NCBI GenBank assembly: GCA_902826615.1
Contig: CADEFN010000001.1
Coordinates: forward strand, 1 to 64,000
Direction: 5' to 3'
Length of the DNA: 64,000 nucleotides
From: an uncultured Gemmatimonadota bacterium
GTDB taxonomy: Bacteria; Gemmatimonadota; Gemmatimonadetes; Gemmatimonadales; Gemmatimonadaceae
Shown here: piece after piece, positions 41,726 to 52,762 of the stretch
Numbering within the stretch: the first letter of the stretch is position 1
How the letters are laid out: each line of letters begins with the position of its first letter
Program-made: the position numbers and the translations under genes
Notes under the pieces: model-generated
What the model was told of the DNA's origin: nothing
The model's database searches: none
Seen by the model: only the letters and a program-made list of their open reading frames with translations

Positions 41726-41906
41726 AACACCGTCACCACTGTGGAAGTGAGGGCAAGGTACAGAACGCGATCTCGGGGTGCGACATGCCAGTGATGGAGG
41801 GGGGATCGGCCCCCGTGTGCCGAATCCCTGCGTGACCGGTGGAAATCAGCGACTGAAGCGCTCCCGACGGCGGTTACCTTTCTGCGTATCTCCTGTGCTC
41901 CATTCC

Positions 41907-42983
41907 GTGCCCCGTCTCGTTCGTTTCGCCCTCCTGGTCGTCCTTGCCGCCTGTCGTGGCGAGCCCGCGCGTGATGCCGGGCTGTTCCGGGGCGTGTACG
42001 TCAGTCCGCCAGTGGAGAAACCCGACTTCACCTTCACGGACTTCAACGGGCAGCCGTTCAGCTTCCGTTTGGCGACCGAAGGAAAGGTGGCCCTGCTGTT
42101 CTTCGGCTATACCCACTGCCCTGATGTCTGTCCGTTGCACGCGGCCAACGTGTCGGCCGTGCTGCGACAGATGCCGTTCGACGAGGCGAGCAAGATCCAG
42201 TTTGTCTTTGTGACAACCGACCCCGAGCGCGACACACCGGAACGGCTCAAGCAGTGGCTGGGGGCCTTCGATCCACGGTTCATCGGGCTACGGGGATCGC
42301 CCGAGGAGCTGGCACGTGTACAGGCAGCCTTGCAGATCGCACCGGCCCGCAAGGAACTCCCGACGGGTGCCGACTCGGCGTCCTATCTGGTGGGGCATGC
42401 GGCGCAGGTGATTGCGTTCGGGCTCGACGGGAAAGCGCGCACTGAATACCCGATGGGCGTACGTCAGGACGATTGGGCGGCCGACCTTCCCCGGCTCGCG
42501 CGAGGCGAGGTGCCGACTGCACCACGCTCTCGGGACGGGCAACCCGCTGGCGAAGTGAACCTCGCGCCCGCGGCCACCGAGGTGACGGCGGCCGCCATCG
42601 AGATTCTCGCAGCGGTCATGGCTGCGCCTCCGACAGTCAGCGAGGGCGCGGTGTACCTGGTGGTCCGCAACAACTCTGCCCGCGCCGACACCCTCCTGTC
42701 GGTGTGGAGCCCCGAGGCCGAGGGGGCCATGATTCACTCGACGACCACGGGCGGCCGCATGCAGCAGATGGAAATGAAGTCGTCACTCCCGATTGGCGCG
42801 GGTGAAACACTCACCCTCGCCCCCGGTGCGACACATCTGATGCTGACGGGCTTGCGGCGACTTCCGGCGGCCGGCGAATCGTTTCCCTTGCGCCTGCGCT
42901 TTGCCCGTGCCGGAGAATTCATCGTGGCACCGATGGTCGTGCCGTACGCCGACGTGCAGGCGCAACTCGGCGCTGCCCGCTGA
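41907..42983 (+). CDS. SCO1-PCu(A)C fusion: copper chaperone for cytochrome oxidase
   Basis: The 358-residue protein starts with GTG 41907 and a signal/lipobox (LAAC, Cys15). Residues 30-190 are a SCO thioredoxin fold with copper ligands CPDVCP and, later, SYLVGHAAQVIAF. Residues about 220-358 are a PCu(A)C cupredoxin-like chaperone with MIHSTTTGGRMQQM and THLMLTGL, giving the His, Met, His-x-Met ligand set. The two normally separate partners in loading the CuA centre are joined in one chain. The CtaG-like gene follows at 25 bases. Confidence 0.85.
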   Translation: MPRLVRFALLVVLAACRGEPARDAGLFRGVYVSPPVEKPDFTFTDFNGQPFSFRLATEGKVALLFFGYTHCPDVCPLHAANVSAVLRQMPFDEASKIQFVFVTTDPERDTPERLKQWLGAFDPRFIGLRGSPEELARVQAALQIAPARKELPTGADSASYLVGHAAQVIAFGLDGKARTEYPMGVRQDDWAADLPRLARGEVPTAPRSRDGQPAGEVNLAPAATEVTAAAIEILAAVMAAPPTVSEGAVYLVVRNNSARADTLLSVWSPEAEGAMIHSTTTGGRMQQMEMKSSLPIGAGETLTLAPGATHLMLTGLRRLPAAGESFPLRLRFARAGEFIVAPMVVPYADVQAQLGAAR

Positions 42984-43007
42984 TGCGCCAACCAACCAAA
43001 TCCTGAA

Positions 43008-43805
43008 ATGCAGTTCTGGTGTTCTGCCACCGATACCGCCTGGTCCTGGGCGTGGAAACCCTTTCCCGGCGTCTGGATCTTCGTGATTCTGGTAGGATTG
43101 GCGGTCTCGCGTCTGGAACGCTCGGGGGCACGCGCTGCGGGGGTCACGCCGCGGCCCATGCACCCGCTGGCACTGCTCGGCGTGCTCACGCTCTGGCTCG
43201 CACTCGACTGGCCCATTGGTGCGTTAGGCGCCGGATACCTGGCCAGTATTCACATGCTGCAGTTCCTGCTCATCGCACTGGTGGCAGCCCCTGCCATCCT
43301 GGCGGGTCTCTCGCCACAGGCGCTGGGCGTGCTGACGCGGGGAAAGCCGGGCGTCGTGCTCGAACGGCTGACGAGGCCGGTGCTGGCACTGCTGATTTTC
43401 AATGGCGTCGTGTTGCTCACCCATCTGCCGCCCCTCGTGGACGGGCTCATGCGCACACAGCTCGGGTCGATGCTGATCGACTTGCTCTGGCTCGGCAGTG
43501 GCTTGCTCTTCTGGTTCCCCGTCATCGCGGCGTTGCCCGCACGACCCACCTTTGTGCCGCCACTGCGGATGCTGTATCTCGTGGTGGGGCTCATGTTCTC
43601 CCCCATCATGTTCGGTCTCGCGGGATTCATGGTGTATGCCCAGCGCCCGCTGTACGCGATCTATGAGCTGGCACCTCCATTTGCCGGCTGGACCGCGAAG
43701 ATGGACCACGAGGTTGCGGGAGTCATGATGTCCGTCATGGGTGCCACGGTCGCGTTCATCGGACTCTCGGTGATCTTCTTCCGTTGGAGCAAGACCGACG
43801 GGTAG
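43008..43805 (+). CDS. CtaG-like cytochrome c oxidase assembly membrane protein
   Basis: The 265-residue membrane protein has seven hydrophobic helices and the caa3-type CtaG pattern: LASIHMLQFLLIALVAAPAILAGLSP, TRPVLALLIFNGVVLLTHLPPLVDG, MLYLVVGLMFSPIMFGLAGFMVY. It is unrelated in fold to Cox11 despite the shared name. It probably assists copper insertion into cytochrome c oxidase, together with the SCO-PCu(A)C fusion just upstream. Confidence 0.8.
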   Translation: MQFWCSATDTAWSWAWKPFPGVWIFVILVGLAVSRLERSGARAAGVTPRPMHPLALLGVLTLWLALDWPIGALGAGYLASIHMLQFLLIALVAAPAILAGLSPQALGVLTRGKPGVVLERLTRPVLALLIFNGVVLLTHLPPLVDGLMRTQLGSMLIDLLWLGSGLLFWFPVIAALPARPTFVPPLRMLYLVVGLMFSPIMFGLAGFMVYAQRPLYAIYELAPPFAGWTAKMDHEVAGVMMSVMGATVAFIGLSVIFFRWSKTDG

Positions 43806-47173: not shown

Positions 47174-47926
47174 TCAGCGAGCCGCGTTCACCACCAACTC
47201 GGCATAGTCGATACCGCGCGGGGTGCGGGAGCCGTGCCACGAGAGCAGTTCCCCGTCAACCAGCGCAAACCGCTCGCGCGACCACCCCAGGGCTGCTACC
47301 AGTTCCTCAATGTGCTTTTCGGCAAAGGGAAAGGGCTCACTCGACAGGCAGACGAGCCGCGGATCGGCGCTGGCGAGCGCGTCGAGCGTGACTTCTGGGT
47401 ATCGTTCCGAGTGTGCACCAAACACGTTGCGGCCACCAGCCATGCCTAACAACTCGGCGATGAAGGTGTCGTCGTTCACCGTCATCCAGGGGTCGCGCCA
47501 GATCAGATAGGCGAAGGTCACCGGGGGCCGTGCGCGGGCCGCGTCGCGTACCCGCGCCGCCCGCTGCTCGATATCAGCGGCAATCCCGGCGCCGGCTTTG
47601 GCGGACCCTAACGCGTCCGCGATCGACCGGACCATCGCCGCGGTGTCCGACGCCGTCCGCGGCATGGAGCTGTGCACACGAACGCCAGCCGCCATCAGCG
47701 CCTCGGCGTCTTCGCGCCGGTTTTCCTCCTCGTTCATCAGCACGAGGTCGGGGGCGAGTTCGAGGATACGGTCGAGTTTGGGGTTCTTCGTCCCGCCAAC
47801 TCGCTCGATAGCATCGACGGCTTCCGCCGGGTGGATGCAGAACCTGGTGCGACCCACAAGGTCGTGGCCGCGGCCCAGATCGAAAACCAGCTCAGTCAGC
47901 GAGGGGCAGAGGGAAATGAGACGCAT
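47174..47926 (-). CDS. BtuF-like periplasmic-binding-fold protein without signal peptide
   Basis: The 250-residue product has the TroA/BtuF helical-backbone binding-protein fold: RLISLCPSLTELVFDLGRGHDLVGRTRFCIHP, DRILELAPDLVLMNEEENRREDAEAL, TFAYLIWRDPWMTVNDDTFIAELL and AVGGRNVFGAHSERYPEV-like motifs. Such proteins bind cobalamin, haem or metal chelates. The chain begins MRLISLCPSL with no signal peptide, so it may be cytoplasmic, unlike BtuF. No transporter partner is nearby. Confidence 0.75.
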   Translation of the reverse strand: MRLISLCPSLTELVFDLGRGHDLVGRTRFCIHPAEAVDAIERVGGTKNPKLDRILELAPDLVLMNEEENRREDAEALMAAGVRVHSSMPRTASDTAAMVRSIADALGSAKAGAGIAADIEQRAARVRDAARARPPVTFAYLIWRDPWMTVNDDTFIAELLGMAGGRNVFGAHSERYPEVTLDALASADPRLVCLSSEPFPFAEKHIEELVAALGWSRERFALVDGELLSWHGSRTPRGIDYAELVVNAAR

Positions 47927-48133
47927 GGTCGAGCAGGAGACGCGCGCGGTGGGTGGGCTGGGTCGAACGCTTGCGAGGCCGGACTCCTTTTGCAAGGCGC
48001 CCGAAGGCGATGCCGCGGCCCCCGCTGGGCCTTCCGGCGCGACTTTCTTGAGCGGCGTCTAACCTCGTGGCGGACAACACCATCGGGCTCCCTGTCGGAG
48101 TGCAACGTTACCGCGTCTGAGTCGTCTGAAATC

Positions 48134-51100
48134 GTGACGCCGAACACCCCCGAAACCCGGCCTGGCATTCCGTCCGGTCAGCGCGCCCGGGCGTTCTACG
48201 AACAGGCCATGCAAGACCTGGATCAGGACGCTCCCGCCGCCGCGGTGGGGGCGCTGCTGCTCCAGATCGCGCGCACACACGCAGACAACGGCCATACCAC
48301 TGCGGCCAGCGACTGCCTGGAAGCCATTTTTGCCCTTCCGGCCAGTGCCGACACCCGCTTTGTGCTCAGCGAAGCGTGGGAAGTGCGCGGGCGCCTCGCC
48401 TGCCTCACGGGTGATCTCGATGCCGCGGCGGACGCCTTCCGGCAGCAGCAAGCCCTCGCCCGCGAGGCCGGAGGGGAATGGCTCGTCGCGTTAGGCGACG
48501 AACACCTCGCCACCCTCGACGTGGTGCGCAGTGCCTGGGACGACGCTATCGCCCGACTCGGTGCCGCGGCCAAGGGGTTCTCCGCTGCCAGCGACGAAGC
48601 CGGGGCCCTGCGGGTGCTGTTACAGCTGGCCACCCTCTGCGTGGACCTCAAGCGCTGGAACCTGGCCGAGCAGACGCTGGCCGACGCCGTTCCACGCGCC
48701 CACGCCGTCCACGACACACCGACCCTCGCCCGGCTCGAGCTGACCCGGGCCACCATGGCCATCGACCGCGCCAACATCGAGCGGGCACGGCTGGCCACGG
48801 AACGCGCCCTCGACCTTGCCCGTCGTGCGGGTGAACCTGGGCTGCTCGCGGATGCCGTGGCGATGTCGAGTATTGTCGCGCGCGAAGCCGGTGACCTGGC
48901 CCGGGCCCTCCAGCTCCTCGAAGACGCCGAACGCCAGGCGACATCGTTAGGCGATGAGATGCTTCTCGGCGAGCTGGCCTGCGGGCGAGTGGAGGTCCTC
49001 GCCCGTGAGGACCAGCATCGCCTCACGCTGACGGCGCTCAATCGGGCCTATCGCGCGCTCGCGCGTCTGCTCGGACAAACGGGATCGGTGGAACGCGCCC
49101 GTCGTCTGCGGCGGCTCGAGGCCACCTTCCTCGATGTCACGCGCCGCTGGGCCCAGCGCTTTGAAGGGGTCGACCCCGACACCAGCGGCCATGTCGAACG
49201 GGTCGCGGACCTGACCTGCGAAATCGCGCGACGCATGGGCGCCGATCCCTCCTCCCTCATCGGGTATCGCGTTGGCGCCTATCTGCACGATCTTGGCAAA
49301 CTCGCGATACCAGCTGCGATCCTCAACAAACGCGGACGTCTGACGGCCGACGAGTGGGCGGCAGTCAAGCGGCACCCCGTGGCGGGCGCTGAACTCCTGG
49401 CCGAGGCTGATTTTCCGTGGGAAGTGCGTCCGATTGTGGAATCGCACCACGAGTGCTGGGATGGGTCCGGCTATCCGCACGGGCGCGCGGGTGAGGAAAT
49501 CCCGATGGCCGCACGCATTTTCTGCGTGGCCGATGTGTACGACGCCCTCATCACCCGCCGGCCCTTCAAACACGCGCTGACCCGTGAAGACGCCGTGGAA
49601 GTGATGCGGCGCGATGTGGGCCGGCAGTTTGACCCGGCGGTGTTCCATGTCTTCGAGGACGTGATCCGCGAAGGGGTGCCGATTCCGGGGATCACGTCGG
49701 CGGCCACCGTACCAAACCCGGTACAGCAGGACGAACCCCTCGTCGACGATGCCCTCACCTCCGTCGCCACCTTCGCCTCGTGGACACGCCGTGCCTCCCG
49801 TCTTCTCGCCGAACGGCGGGCCGACGGTGGCGAGGCCTGCCTGCTCCTCCTCGACGTCGATGACTTTGACCGGGTGAACCGCACCTATGGCCGGCTGCAG
49901 GGCGACGATGTGCTCTGGGCGGTGGCCAAGGTGTTGCAACGTGGTGTGCGATCGCAGGACCTGGTGGGCCGGCGAGCCGGTGATGAGTTTGTGGTCTACC
50001 TTCCGGGAACATCGCTGGCTGCCGCAACGGAGATTGCGGAACGGCTGCGGGAAAGTGTGGCCGGACTGCGCTGCGCACGCCGGCACTCGGAGGACGAGAG
50101 CATTGCCGTGTCAGCGTGCCTGGCCATTGCCACGGCGCCCGACGACGGCGAAACACTCGAAGCGCTCCTCGCCACCGCTGATCGCTCGATCTTCAGGGCC
50201 AAGGGCGCGGGTCGCGATCAGGTGGCGGTGGCCGACCGTGGTGAACCGGCACGAGCCCATGCCGCCCTGGATTTCAGTGCCTTTGTCGGGCGCGAAGACG
50301 AACTGCGGCTGCTCACCGCCCAGCTCGACTTTGCTTCACGCGGTGAACCGCGGCTGGTCGGCATCACGGGGGAAGCCGGCGTTGGCAAGTCGGCACTCGT
50401 CAGGCAGCTGGAGCCCGAGGTACGGCTGCGTGCCGGGTGGATGGTCACCGGTGAGGCCACCGCCGACGGCATGGATGGTCCCCTCGCCCCCTGGGCCGGC
50501 GTGATTGCCCAGCTGGTCACGCTGGGTGGCACCGGTGAGCGGGTGTGGCCGGCGTTGTCGCAGTGGCTCCCCGGCAGCTTTGGCGACGTGGAGACGGAGG
50601 GCGCACCCCCAACCACTCGTCTGCAGGAAGAGATTGTCGCATTCGTCCGCCGTGCCGCGCGGGCACGCCCCGTGGTGGTGGTGATGGAGAACATGCATCA
50701 CGCCGCGGCGGCCAGCTGGGCCACCCTCGACGCCCTCCTGGCCGCGGTCGACGACGAACGCTTGCTGATGGTCTTCACCTCACGCCCCGAGGTACCGGCT
50801 GGCGCGGGCGAATGGCGACGACGGTTGCAGCAACATGCGCGTACCACCATGGTGCCGCTGCGCCGGTTTGCGCTTGAAGATGTGCGCCGCTGGATTCGCA
50901 CCGTCTTTCGCGACGCGGCACCCGGTGACGACGTCGCACGCTGGCTGCACGAGTTTGCTGAAGGCATTCCGCGTTTTGTGCTGCATTTGCTGCGCGCTGC
51001 CTGTGACGATGGCACGATCTGGTATGCCGGTACCCGCTGGGAATGGCAGGCACCCGACGCACGGGGTGCCTCCGCCGGCTTGAGCTGGGTGATGGAGCGC

Positions 51101-52762
51101 CGGCTCGAACGGCTCGGCGCGCCCACACGGCAGGTGCTGGCGACGGCGGCATTGCTCGAACCCGCACTTTCGCTCGAGCTCCTGATCTCCGTGACCGGAC
51201 TGAGTGAACAGGATGCCCGCGTGGCCATGGAAGAGGCCATTGGGGCCTCTGTGCTGATCCGCGTGGGAGAAACCGGCGACGACTTCGCCTTCCGTCATCC
51301 ACTGCTGATAGAAGCCAGCGTGCGTGGCACACCCGAACGCGAACGGCAGCGTGTGCATGACGTGGCGGCACGTGTGCTCGAACTGCGTGCGCCGGCAGCC
51401 GTGGAGACCATCGCCGCCCACTATCACGCGGCGGGCAACGATGGCGCCGCACTCGCCCTCGCCCTGCAGTCCGCCGAGCGAATGCTGAGTGGCTGCGCCC
51501 ATGACCTGGCCCTGGCGCATCTGCAAGTTGCACAACGCTACGCCGGCTCATCGTCCGAGCTGGCGACCATTCGCGTGCGTCACGCGGAAATGGCCGTCGA
51601 GGGGGGACGGATCGATCAGGCCGCCGCCATGAGCGACCTGGCCCTCGAGTGGCTCGACCGGCAACCCGTGAGTAGTGTCTCCATTCGTGCGCGACGCACA
51701 CGCGAGTGGGTGCAATGGCAGCGTGGCAAGAGTGCGGGACGCAGCAGCGAAGCCATGCGATCCCTGCTCGACGACGCCACCAGTGCCGTCAGCGAGGAAG
51801 TGGCCCCGACGGCGTTGGTGGCCGCCGAGATGGCGCTCGAGCGGGCCCAATGGTCCGAAGCCGATGCGCTCGCCCGACGGGCAGTCGACAGCGCCGGCGA
51901 CACCGTCGGGGCCCAGGCCGCACTGACCTCGGCCGTCGCTCGCTGCTGGCAGGGACAGGGTGATGCACAACTCGTACGTGACGCCGCAGCGCGGCTGGCG
52001 CAGTCCGACGACCCACGGCGGCGGGCGCACGCACTCCTGGCCACGGGCGATGTCGTGATGCGCACCAGCGGCAGCGCCGAAGCCGAAGACCTCCTCATGA
52101 GTGCCATCGAGGCCGCGCGGTCCGGCCATCACCTGCGGCTGGCCGCGAAAGTCTCCAGATCGTTAGGTCTGTGGCGGGCCCGTCAGGGTGAATGGACCGA
52201 GGCGCAGCAATGGCTGGGTGACGCGGAACGGCTCTTCAGCACCCTCGAGTCAGAGCCCGACCGTATCGCCACGCTGCTCGACGGGGCGCAGTTGCTCCGC
52301 GCCATGGGTGACCGCGCCCGCGCGCAGGCGCAGTTCGAGTCCGTGGCACGGCGCGCACGCGACATCGAGGTGCGCGGCATGGAGCTGGCCGCCATTGCCG
52401 GAGCCGCGCTCAGCAATGGCGGACCGGAATCGGACAGTTCACGGGCACGCTGGCACCGGGTCAGCGAATTGATCACCGATGCGCCGTCCAGCTGGTGGTT
52501 CCCGGGACGCGAACTGGTGGATGCCTTTGCCATTCAGATGCTGCTCGCATCGGGGCACGTCGCCGCCGCGCAGGAACTCCTGACCAGCGCCACCGAGCGG
52601 CAGGCGCGGCTGGATCAATACGGAGGTGTGTGGCTGATCGCCGAATGCACCACCGCACTGCGACGCGCGGGCATCTCGGCCGCTGATGACCTGCATCGCG
52701 TGGCACGCCACCAGGCTCGGCAATTAGGCTTTGGAGCATTGACGGCGTTGCTCGAAGCCTGA
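48134..52762 (+). CDS. TPR - HD-GYP - GGDEF - STAND-type ATPase multidomain regulator
   Basis: This 1,542-residue protein combines four activities. Residues about 25-330 are helical TPR-like repeats. An HD-GYP phosphodiesterase domain follows (HDLGK from 385, HHECWDGSGYP with GYP at 446-448). Residues about 545-705 form a GGDEF cyclase domain whose active-site motif is AGDEF at 615-619, a mild variant. From 715 (FVGREDELRLL) an AAA/STAND ATPase starts, with Walker A GEAGVGKS at 746-753, then a second TPR-like helical region to the end. It is probably cytoplasmic and linked to cyclic-di-GMP. GTG 48134 was chosen because the frame has no ATG before 48208. Confidence 0.8.
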   Translation: MTPNTPETRPGIPSGQRARAFYEQAMQDLDQDAPAAAVGALLLQIARTHADNGHTTAASDCLEAIFALPASADTRFVLSEAWEVRGRLACLTGDLDAAADAFRQQQALAREAGGEWLVALGDEHLATLDVVRSAWDDAIARLGAAAKGFSAASDEAGALRVLLQLATLCVDLKRWNLAEQTLADAVPRAHAVHDTPTLARLELTRATMAIDRANIERARLATERALDLARRAGEPGLLADAVAMSSIVAREAGDLARALQLLEDAERQATSLGDEMLLGELACGRVEVLAREDQHRLTLTALNRAYRALARLLGQTGSVERARRLRRLEATFLDVTRRWAQRFEGVDPDTSGHVERVADLTCEIARRMGADPSSLIGYRVGAYLHDLGKLAIPAAILNKRGRLTADEWAAVKRHPVAGAELLAEADFPWEVRPIVESHHECWDGSGYPHGRAGEEIPMAARIFCVADVYDALITRRPFKHALTREDAVEVMRRDVGRQFDPAVFHVFEDVIREGVPIPGITSAATVPNPVQQDEPLVDDALTSVATFASWTRRASRLLAERRADGGEACLLLLDVDDFDRVNRTYGRLQGDDVLWAVAKVLQRGVRSQDLVGRRAGDEFVVYLPGTSLAAATEIAERLRESVAGLRCARRHSEDESIAVSACLAIATAPDDGETLEALLATADRSIFRAKGAGRDQVAVADRGEPARAHAALDFSAFVGREDELRLLTAQLDFASRGEPRLVGITGEAGVGKSALVRQLEPEVRLRAGWMVTGEATADGMDGPLAPWAGVIAQLVTLGGTGERVWPALSQWLPGSFGDVETEGAPPTTRLQEEIVAFVRRAARARPVVVVMENMHHAAAASWATLDALLAAVDDERLLMVFTSRPEVPAGAGEWRRRLQQHARTTMVPLRRFALEDVRRWIRTVFRDAAPGDDVARWLHEFAEGIPRFVLHLLRAACDDGTIWYAGTRWEWQAPDARGASAGLSWVMERRLERLGAPTRQVLATAALLEPALSLELLISVTGLSEQDARVAMEEAIGASVLIRVGETGDDFAFRHPLLIEASVRGTPERERQRVHDVAARVLELRAPAAVETIAAHYHAAGNDGAALALALQSAERMLSGCAHDLALAHLQVAQRYAGSSSELATIRVRHAEMAVEGGRIDQAAAMSDLALEWLDRQPVSSVSIRARRTREWVQWQRGKSAGRSSEAMRSLLDDATSAVSEEVAPTALVAAEMALERAQWSEADALARRAVDSAGDTVGAQAALTSAVARCWQGQGDAQLVRDAAARLAQSDDPRRRAHALLATGDVVMRTSGSAEAEDLLMSAIEAARSGHHLRLAAKVSRSLGLWRARQGEWTEAQQWLGDAERLFSTLESEPDRIATLLDGAQLLRAMGDRARAQAQFESVARRARDIEVRGMELAAIAGAALSNGGPESDSSRARWHRVSELITDAPSSWWFPGRELVDAFAIQMLLASGHVAAAQELLTSATERQARLDQYGGVWLIAECTTALRRAGISAADDLHRVARHQARQLGFGALTALLEA

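Follow-up and report, generated by a model that had tools for sequence, protein, structure and literature searches.

A Gemmatimonadota protein family joining HD-GYP, GGDEF and a MalT/STAND-type ATPase between two TPR solenoids

Related architectures

Most c-di-GMP enzymes take their input from PAS, GAF, REC or membrane sensors. Several of the known systems closest to the giant protein analyzed here combine a STAND ATPase with a TPR region. MalT and MalT-like STAND regulators share with it a P-loop ATPase and, behind this, a TPR solenoid of the inducer type (AAA_16/NB-ARC plus C-terminal TPR). However, the output of the giant protein consists of N-terminal c-di-GMP enzymes instead of a DNA-binding domain, and it has an extra N-terminal TPR region. 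The class III cyclase-STAND-TPR proteins, which include the soluble adenylyl cyclase ADCY10, also carry a nucleotide cyclase ahead of STAND and TPR; a representative was found in Chloroflexota (L199), where a class III cyclase was detectable in front of one of three scanned STAND-TPR proteins. The giant protein differs in having a GGDEF diguanylate cyclase and a phosphodiesterase on the same chain.

In Acidobacteriota, GGDEF-STAND-TPR (L203) and kinase-GGDEF-STAND-TPR (L206) proteins display the same placement of GGDEF directly before AAA_16 and TPR, but lack both HD-GYP and the N-terminal TPR, and one of them bears a Ser/Thr kinase instead. This protein (L206:247-4569, minus strand, 1441 aa) comprises the kinase, a GGDEF-like domain (ASDEF), a STAND ATPase and a MalT-like TPR, and long frames similar to it were identified in four more genomes. 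The TPR-HD-GYP and TPR-HD-GYP-GGDEF proteins of Gemmatimonadota, Zixibacteria and Deinococcota share the N-terminal half, but not the STAND-TPR half.

A giant kinase, TPR and GGDEF protein was reported from Clostridium thermocellum in 2005 (PMC1262709). It shares with the present protein GGDEF, TPR and another signalling domain on a giant chain, but has no HD-GYP and a different order, and STAND was not reported. In a survey of five alphaproteobacterial orders, no protein combined GGDEF or EAL with HD-GYP (PMC9756655). A description of the TPR-HD-GYP-GGDEF-STAND-TPR architecture was not found in the literature searched, of which coverage was partial. The family is apparently undescribed and lineage-specific, and public databases surely contain proteins of this kind under automatic annotation.

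Layout, distribution and origin of the giant protein

The window, a stretch of 64,000 nucleotides from an uncultured Gemmatimonadota bacterium, encodes the giant protein from a GTG start. This 1,542-residue frame translates without a stop, and the motif positions given in the initial annotation (HDLGK 385, GYP 446-448, AGDEF 615-619 and Walker A 746-753) were exact. The order from the N- to the C-terminus is TPR solenoid, HD-GYP, GGDEF, MalT/STAND-type ATPase and TPR solenoid (Table 1). The open frame extends upstream to 47672. Since the homology of relatives starts at residues 15-18, a start near GTG 48134 is about right, and a longer N-terminus from 47672 was rejected because homology to the genus-mate begins only at residue 16. 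The unused extension is overlapped by a gene for a Periplasmic-binding-protein-2 type protein (47174-47995, minus strand).

Table 1. Coordinates of the giant gene and its parts in the window
Feature	Position	Strand	Basis
Whole gene, TPR - HD-GYP - GGDEF - STAND - TPR, 1542 aa	48134..52762	+	translation, Pfam
N-terminal TPR solenoid (predicted), res 16-320	48179..49093	+	AlphaFold2 model
HD-GYP domain, res 325-515	49106..49678	+	HD_5, alignment, fold match
GGDEF domain, res 535-705	49736..50248	+	PF00990, alignment to PleD
STAND/AAA_16 NTPase core, res 717-880, FVGREDEL lead-in	50282..50773	+	PF13191
Walker A GEAGVGKS, res 746-753	50369..50392	+	motif
Walker B VVVMEN, res 848-853	50675..50692	+	motif; E852-N853 vs DD/ED in relatives
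Remaining STAND module, res 881-1067; EGIP (GxP-type) motif 943-946	50774..51334	+	family conservation
C-terminal TPR solenoid (predicted), res 1068-1542	51335..52759	+	helical repeats, MalT domain III match

Three Pfam matches were above the curated cut-off: HD_5 (347-503, E 3.8e-34), GGDEF (PF00990, 539-696, E 5.5e-29) and AAA_16 (PF13191, 717-880, E 4.3e-24). The C-terminal TPR match was weak in the window protein itself; among the 18 family members scanned, TPR_12 matched all 18, TPR_MalT 16 and NB-ARC eight. The identities first assigned to HD-GYP, GGDEF and STAND are upheld by these matches together with catalytic residues that are complete family-wide.

The helical repeats noted at both flanks in the initial annotation were borne out by solenoid models at both ends. 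The AlphaFold2 model predicts, mostly at a pLDDT of about 90 or higher, an N-terminal solenoid in which a helix recurs every 20 residues, making about seven helix pairs of 40-residue period, followed by a long helix into HD-GYP. The predicted fold resembles the TPR of LGN/Pins (Z about 25) and the Rap/NprR peptide sensors (Z about 20). The predicted C-terminal solenoid (residues 1217-1542) resembles MalT domain III (1hz4; Z 20.6, rmsd 3.4, 285 aligned), and Rap proteins gave a similar score with a larger rmsd. The predicted HD-GYP fold matched HD-GYP structures with Z 25-26. The model of the STAND core, where an NBD-helical-winged-helix fold would be expected, had low pLDDT and was built from 2 sequences only, and that of residues 881-1067 was of low to middling confidence. 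A phmmer sequence search found no PDB relative of the STAND-TPR half.

Two further full-length paralogues are encoded in the same genome (C1:155153-159736 and C5:135211-139770), with 34-35% identity over the whole length. A total of 48 distinct full-length or near-full-length genes with the full order were detected in about 11 genera. Most of these fused homologues are 31-39% identical to the window protein, and a genus-mate carries an orthologue in conserved synteny with 62% identity; the matches listed include JAGWYS010000092.1 from Gemmatimonadetes bacterium REEB496. As 48 genes share the complete order, a chance fusion or frameshift artefact was rejected. In three other genomes (L219, L220, L221), two full-length giant genes form a tandem pair. 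The genome of the window also has a lone HD-GYP (C1:867778-868380; L012, L031) that is 51% identical to the HD-GYP domain of the window protein; it is a 201-codon frame with a TAG within the matched stretch, and may be a small gene or a remnant.

Among 60 relatives and 395 genomes of the phylum, the full order was confined to the window's own family of Gemmatimonadota, which is probably Gemmatimonadaceae. No full-length match was found in samples from six further phyla, named after their source records and amounting to 1,314 genomes: Chloroflexota (301), Acidobacteriota (247), Myxococcota (237), Deinococcota (101), Actinomycetota (296) and Zixibacteria (132). These samples were partial, and in each genome the phylum-wide scans scored only the two to five top candidates. 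The architecture is thus likely restricted to Gemmatimonadota. Neither the paralogues nor the lineage-specific family, nor the altered Walker B described below, had appeared in the initial annotation.

The giant architecture is assembled from older parts, TPR-HD-GYP and GGDEF-STAND-TPR. TPR-HD-GYP alone is widespread in Gemmatimonadota and also occurs in Zixibacteria, while TPR-HD-GYP-GGDEF is present in Deinococcota, and both GGDEF-STAND-TPR and kinase-GGDEF-STAND-TPR in Acidobacteriota. In a tree of the STAND region calculated with a quick method, the Gemmatimonadota proteins formed one group, and those without HD-GYP made up a single branch nested in the fused proteins (SH-aLRT 90). Most simply, these branchings suggest one fusion with later loss of the HD-GYP half. 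When the tree was built from the N-terminal half, the fused proteins had a STAND-less clade and several proteins with HD-GYP only nested among them.

HD-GYP before GGDEF had been considered the reverse of the common order, and it is not unique, as it is also found in Deinococcota. The idea of two opposing enzymes beside a STAND switch on one chain is upheld. Coupling to STAND had been called unusual; GGDEF-STAND-TPR also exists in Acidobacteriota. A domain-architecture search had been proposed as a check: the order recurs in the 48 genes as an apparently lineage-specific trait that is described nowhere in the sources searched. The architecture is real, well conserved and unusual, and it is not categorically new because all of its modules, and most combinations of adjacent ones, are also found in other proteins.

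Catalytic residues and ATPase motifs

The HD-GYP residues H353, H385, D386, K389, H414, H438, H439 and D467 are invariant in all 48 fused proteins, and alignment to PmGH (4mcw) and V-cGAP3 (5z7c) revealed a complete set of metal ligands plus the catalytic Lys. D349 of the window protein aligns with the PmGH Glu located four residues before the first His, the third-metal ligand E185; this position is mostly Tyr in relatives. The GGDEF residues D574, D576, N582, D591, D617 and E618 are likewise invariant (48/48), and AGDEF 615-619, D574, N582 and D591 of the window protein align to PleD. The roles of these residues are supported by homology to PleD, PmGH and V-cGAP3. The first motif residue is A in 42 of the 48 members, so AGDEF is the family norm, and this variant has proven activity in VCA0965 (PMC3974145). 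The close relatives of the window protein have GSDEF or SGDEF, forms whose activity is less certain. An RxxD product-inhibition site (I-site RSQD 606-609) is present in the window protein, with the R kept in 39/48 and the D in 30/48 members. Conservation is highest in HD-GYP, which shares 83% identity with the nearest homologues, versus 59-61% for GGDEF.

R720 and the P-loop lysine K752 are also invariant in the fused proteins (48/48). Judged by their residues, cyclase and phosphodiesterase both look alive family-wide, and because the HD-GYP ligands, the GGDEF residues and the Walker A lysine are kept in every fused protein, a dual function is more likely than one dead partner domain. The window copy deviates at other STAND motifs. 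Its Walker B pair is E852-N853 versus DD or ED in the family (D853 in 47/48, N853 in the window copy only), and it has HHA for QWA and EGIP for EGNP, while both full-length paralogues (L010, L011) keep the consensus. Because of the altered Walker B, ATP hydrolysis by the window copy is doubtful; it may be impaired with binding kept, and with slow or no hydrolysis the on-state may last longer than in the paralogues.

Eighteen GGDEF-STAND-TPR proteins without HD-GYP were compared for GGDEF and the Walker A lysine. Both are intact in five and lost in 12; one protein has a dead GGDEF but keeps the lysine, and a live GGDEF never occurs without it. Those placed on the tree sit within the fused clade, where GGDEF would have been lost about once and the lysine between one and three times. 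These co-losses amount to two independent pairs only, which leaves a statistical test without power. Since retention and loss go together in this clade, the P-loop is apparently needed only with a live cyclase, a hint that the ATPase serves the cyclase. The 12 proteins that lost both (L069, L210, L211, L047, L212-L217, L049, L073) have GxGT or GxSS for GxGK and a Walker B that is mostly still acidic; they are possibly nucleotide-free scaffolds or sensors. In three other proteins (L066-L068), HD-GYP is kept where GGDEF decays. A rule that GGDEF decays without STAND fits these three, but was rejected, as it fails on L065 (nearly intact) and on Deinococcota L207-L208 (intact).

Possible control of the two enzymes

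From this layout we infer activity, sensing, ATP gating and direction of control as follows. With a probability of roughly one half, the giant protein would be a STAND-gated cyclase and a TPR-gated phosphodiesterase on one chain, giving two-way cytosolic control of c-di-GMP. The C-terminal MalT-like solenoid would sense a protein, a peptide or a small ligand, upon which the STAND module would bind ATP and self-associate; GGDEF domains would then meet and c-di-GMP synthesis be switched on, limited by product inhibition at RxxD. The N-terminal solenoid would set the phosphodiesterase through the long helix, in response to a partner of its own. GGDEF domains are active as dimers, and ATP and ligand cause STAND modules to self-associate; STAND assembly would therefore be a natural way of joining GGDEF domains. 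The likeness of the C-terminal solenoid to the MalT inducer domain also favours this reading, and the TPR-HD-GYP half may be able to work by itself because it is also found alone. The fuller version, in which a STAND with a MalT-type sensor gates the cyclase and HD-GYP is independently TPR-gated, with two cytosolic partners read to move c-di-GMP up or down, is put forward tentatively. A PilZ protein encoded in the genome is a possible c-di-GMP receptor. Weighing against a STAND-gated cyclase are the weak co-loss statistics, the GSDEF/SGDEF relatives, the altered Walker B and the GGDEF of Deinococcota, which stays intact without STAND.

The neighbourhood comparison found no conserved neighbour that could name the signal, which counts on the same side. 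The adjacent genes (metallo-beta-lactamase-fold, DUF5916 and sortilin-like) were rejected as partners, being conserved only in close relatives without recurrence elsewhere. Elsewhere in the window, 41778-43805 contains copper-handling genes for cytochrome oxidase assembly, a SCO1/SenC plus PCuAC fusion followed by CtaG.

Several GGDEF-EAL phosphodiesterases are tuned by their GGDEF domains, and the main rival reading is of this kind: GGDEF would bind GTP and, with STAND, merely tune the HD-GYP phosphodiesterase, no c-di-GMP being made. The stronger conservation of HD-GYP, the GSDEF or SGDEF of the nearest relatives and the retention of HD-GYP in L066-L068 all agree with it. A purely allosteric GGDEF would, however, need neither Mg2+ ligands nor E618, yet these are kept in 48/48, and AGDEF is known to be active (PMC3974145); we regard this rival as rather unlikely. 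Another reading takes the window copy for a paralogue that is drifting: its STAND would no longer cycle ATP, with mainly HD-GYP and perhaps a constitutive GGDEF still mattering. This is improbable. Its unique STAND residues, set against the consensus of both paralogues, would fit such drift, but the genus retains the gene as an orthologue in conserved synteny, and Walker A and all enzyme residues are intact. STAND proteins can, moreover, act on ATP binding alone.

Handling of another cyclic dinucleotide, such as 3',3'-cGAMP, by HD-GYP or the whole protein seems very improbable, even though V-cGAP3, a cGAMP phosphodiesterase, is the nearest in sequence of the HD-GYP proteins with a solved structure. 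A Ser marks the cGAMP-making Hypr GGDEF enzymes (S347 of GacA; PMC6456294), but its equivalent here, mapped through the PleD alignment, appears to be Asp (D591). Defence NTPases are among the STAND proteins that bear repeat sensors, and an NLR-like defence protein with c-di-GMP turnover as effector would fit that pattern. Stable family-wide inheritance with paralogues speaks against defence, PADLOC gave no match to a defence system, and no defence genes were present among the ten neighbours scanned; this last reading is scarcely credible.

If the STAND-gated-cyclase reading is true, the giant protein would be the c-di-GMP counterpart of the STAND-controlled nucleotide cyclases. GGDEF dimerisation could then be controlled by STAND modules that self-assemble with ATP, which would tie c-di-GMP, the best-known bacterial lifestyle messenger, to an NLR/MalT switch. 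Since every member has a complete cyclase and phosphodiesterase, and split as well as decayed versions occur in nature, the old question of how such opposing domains share one chain is directly testable in this family.
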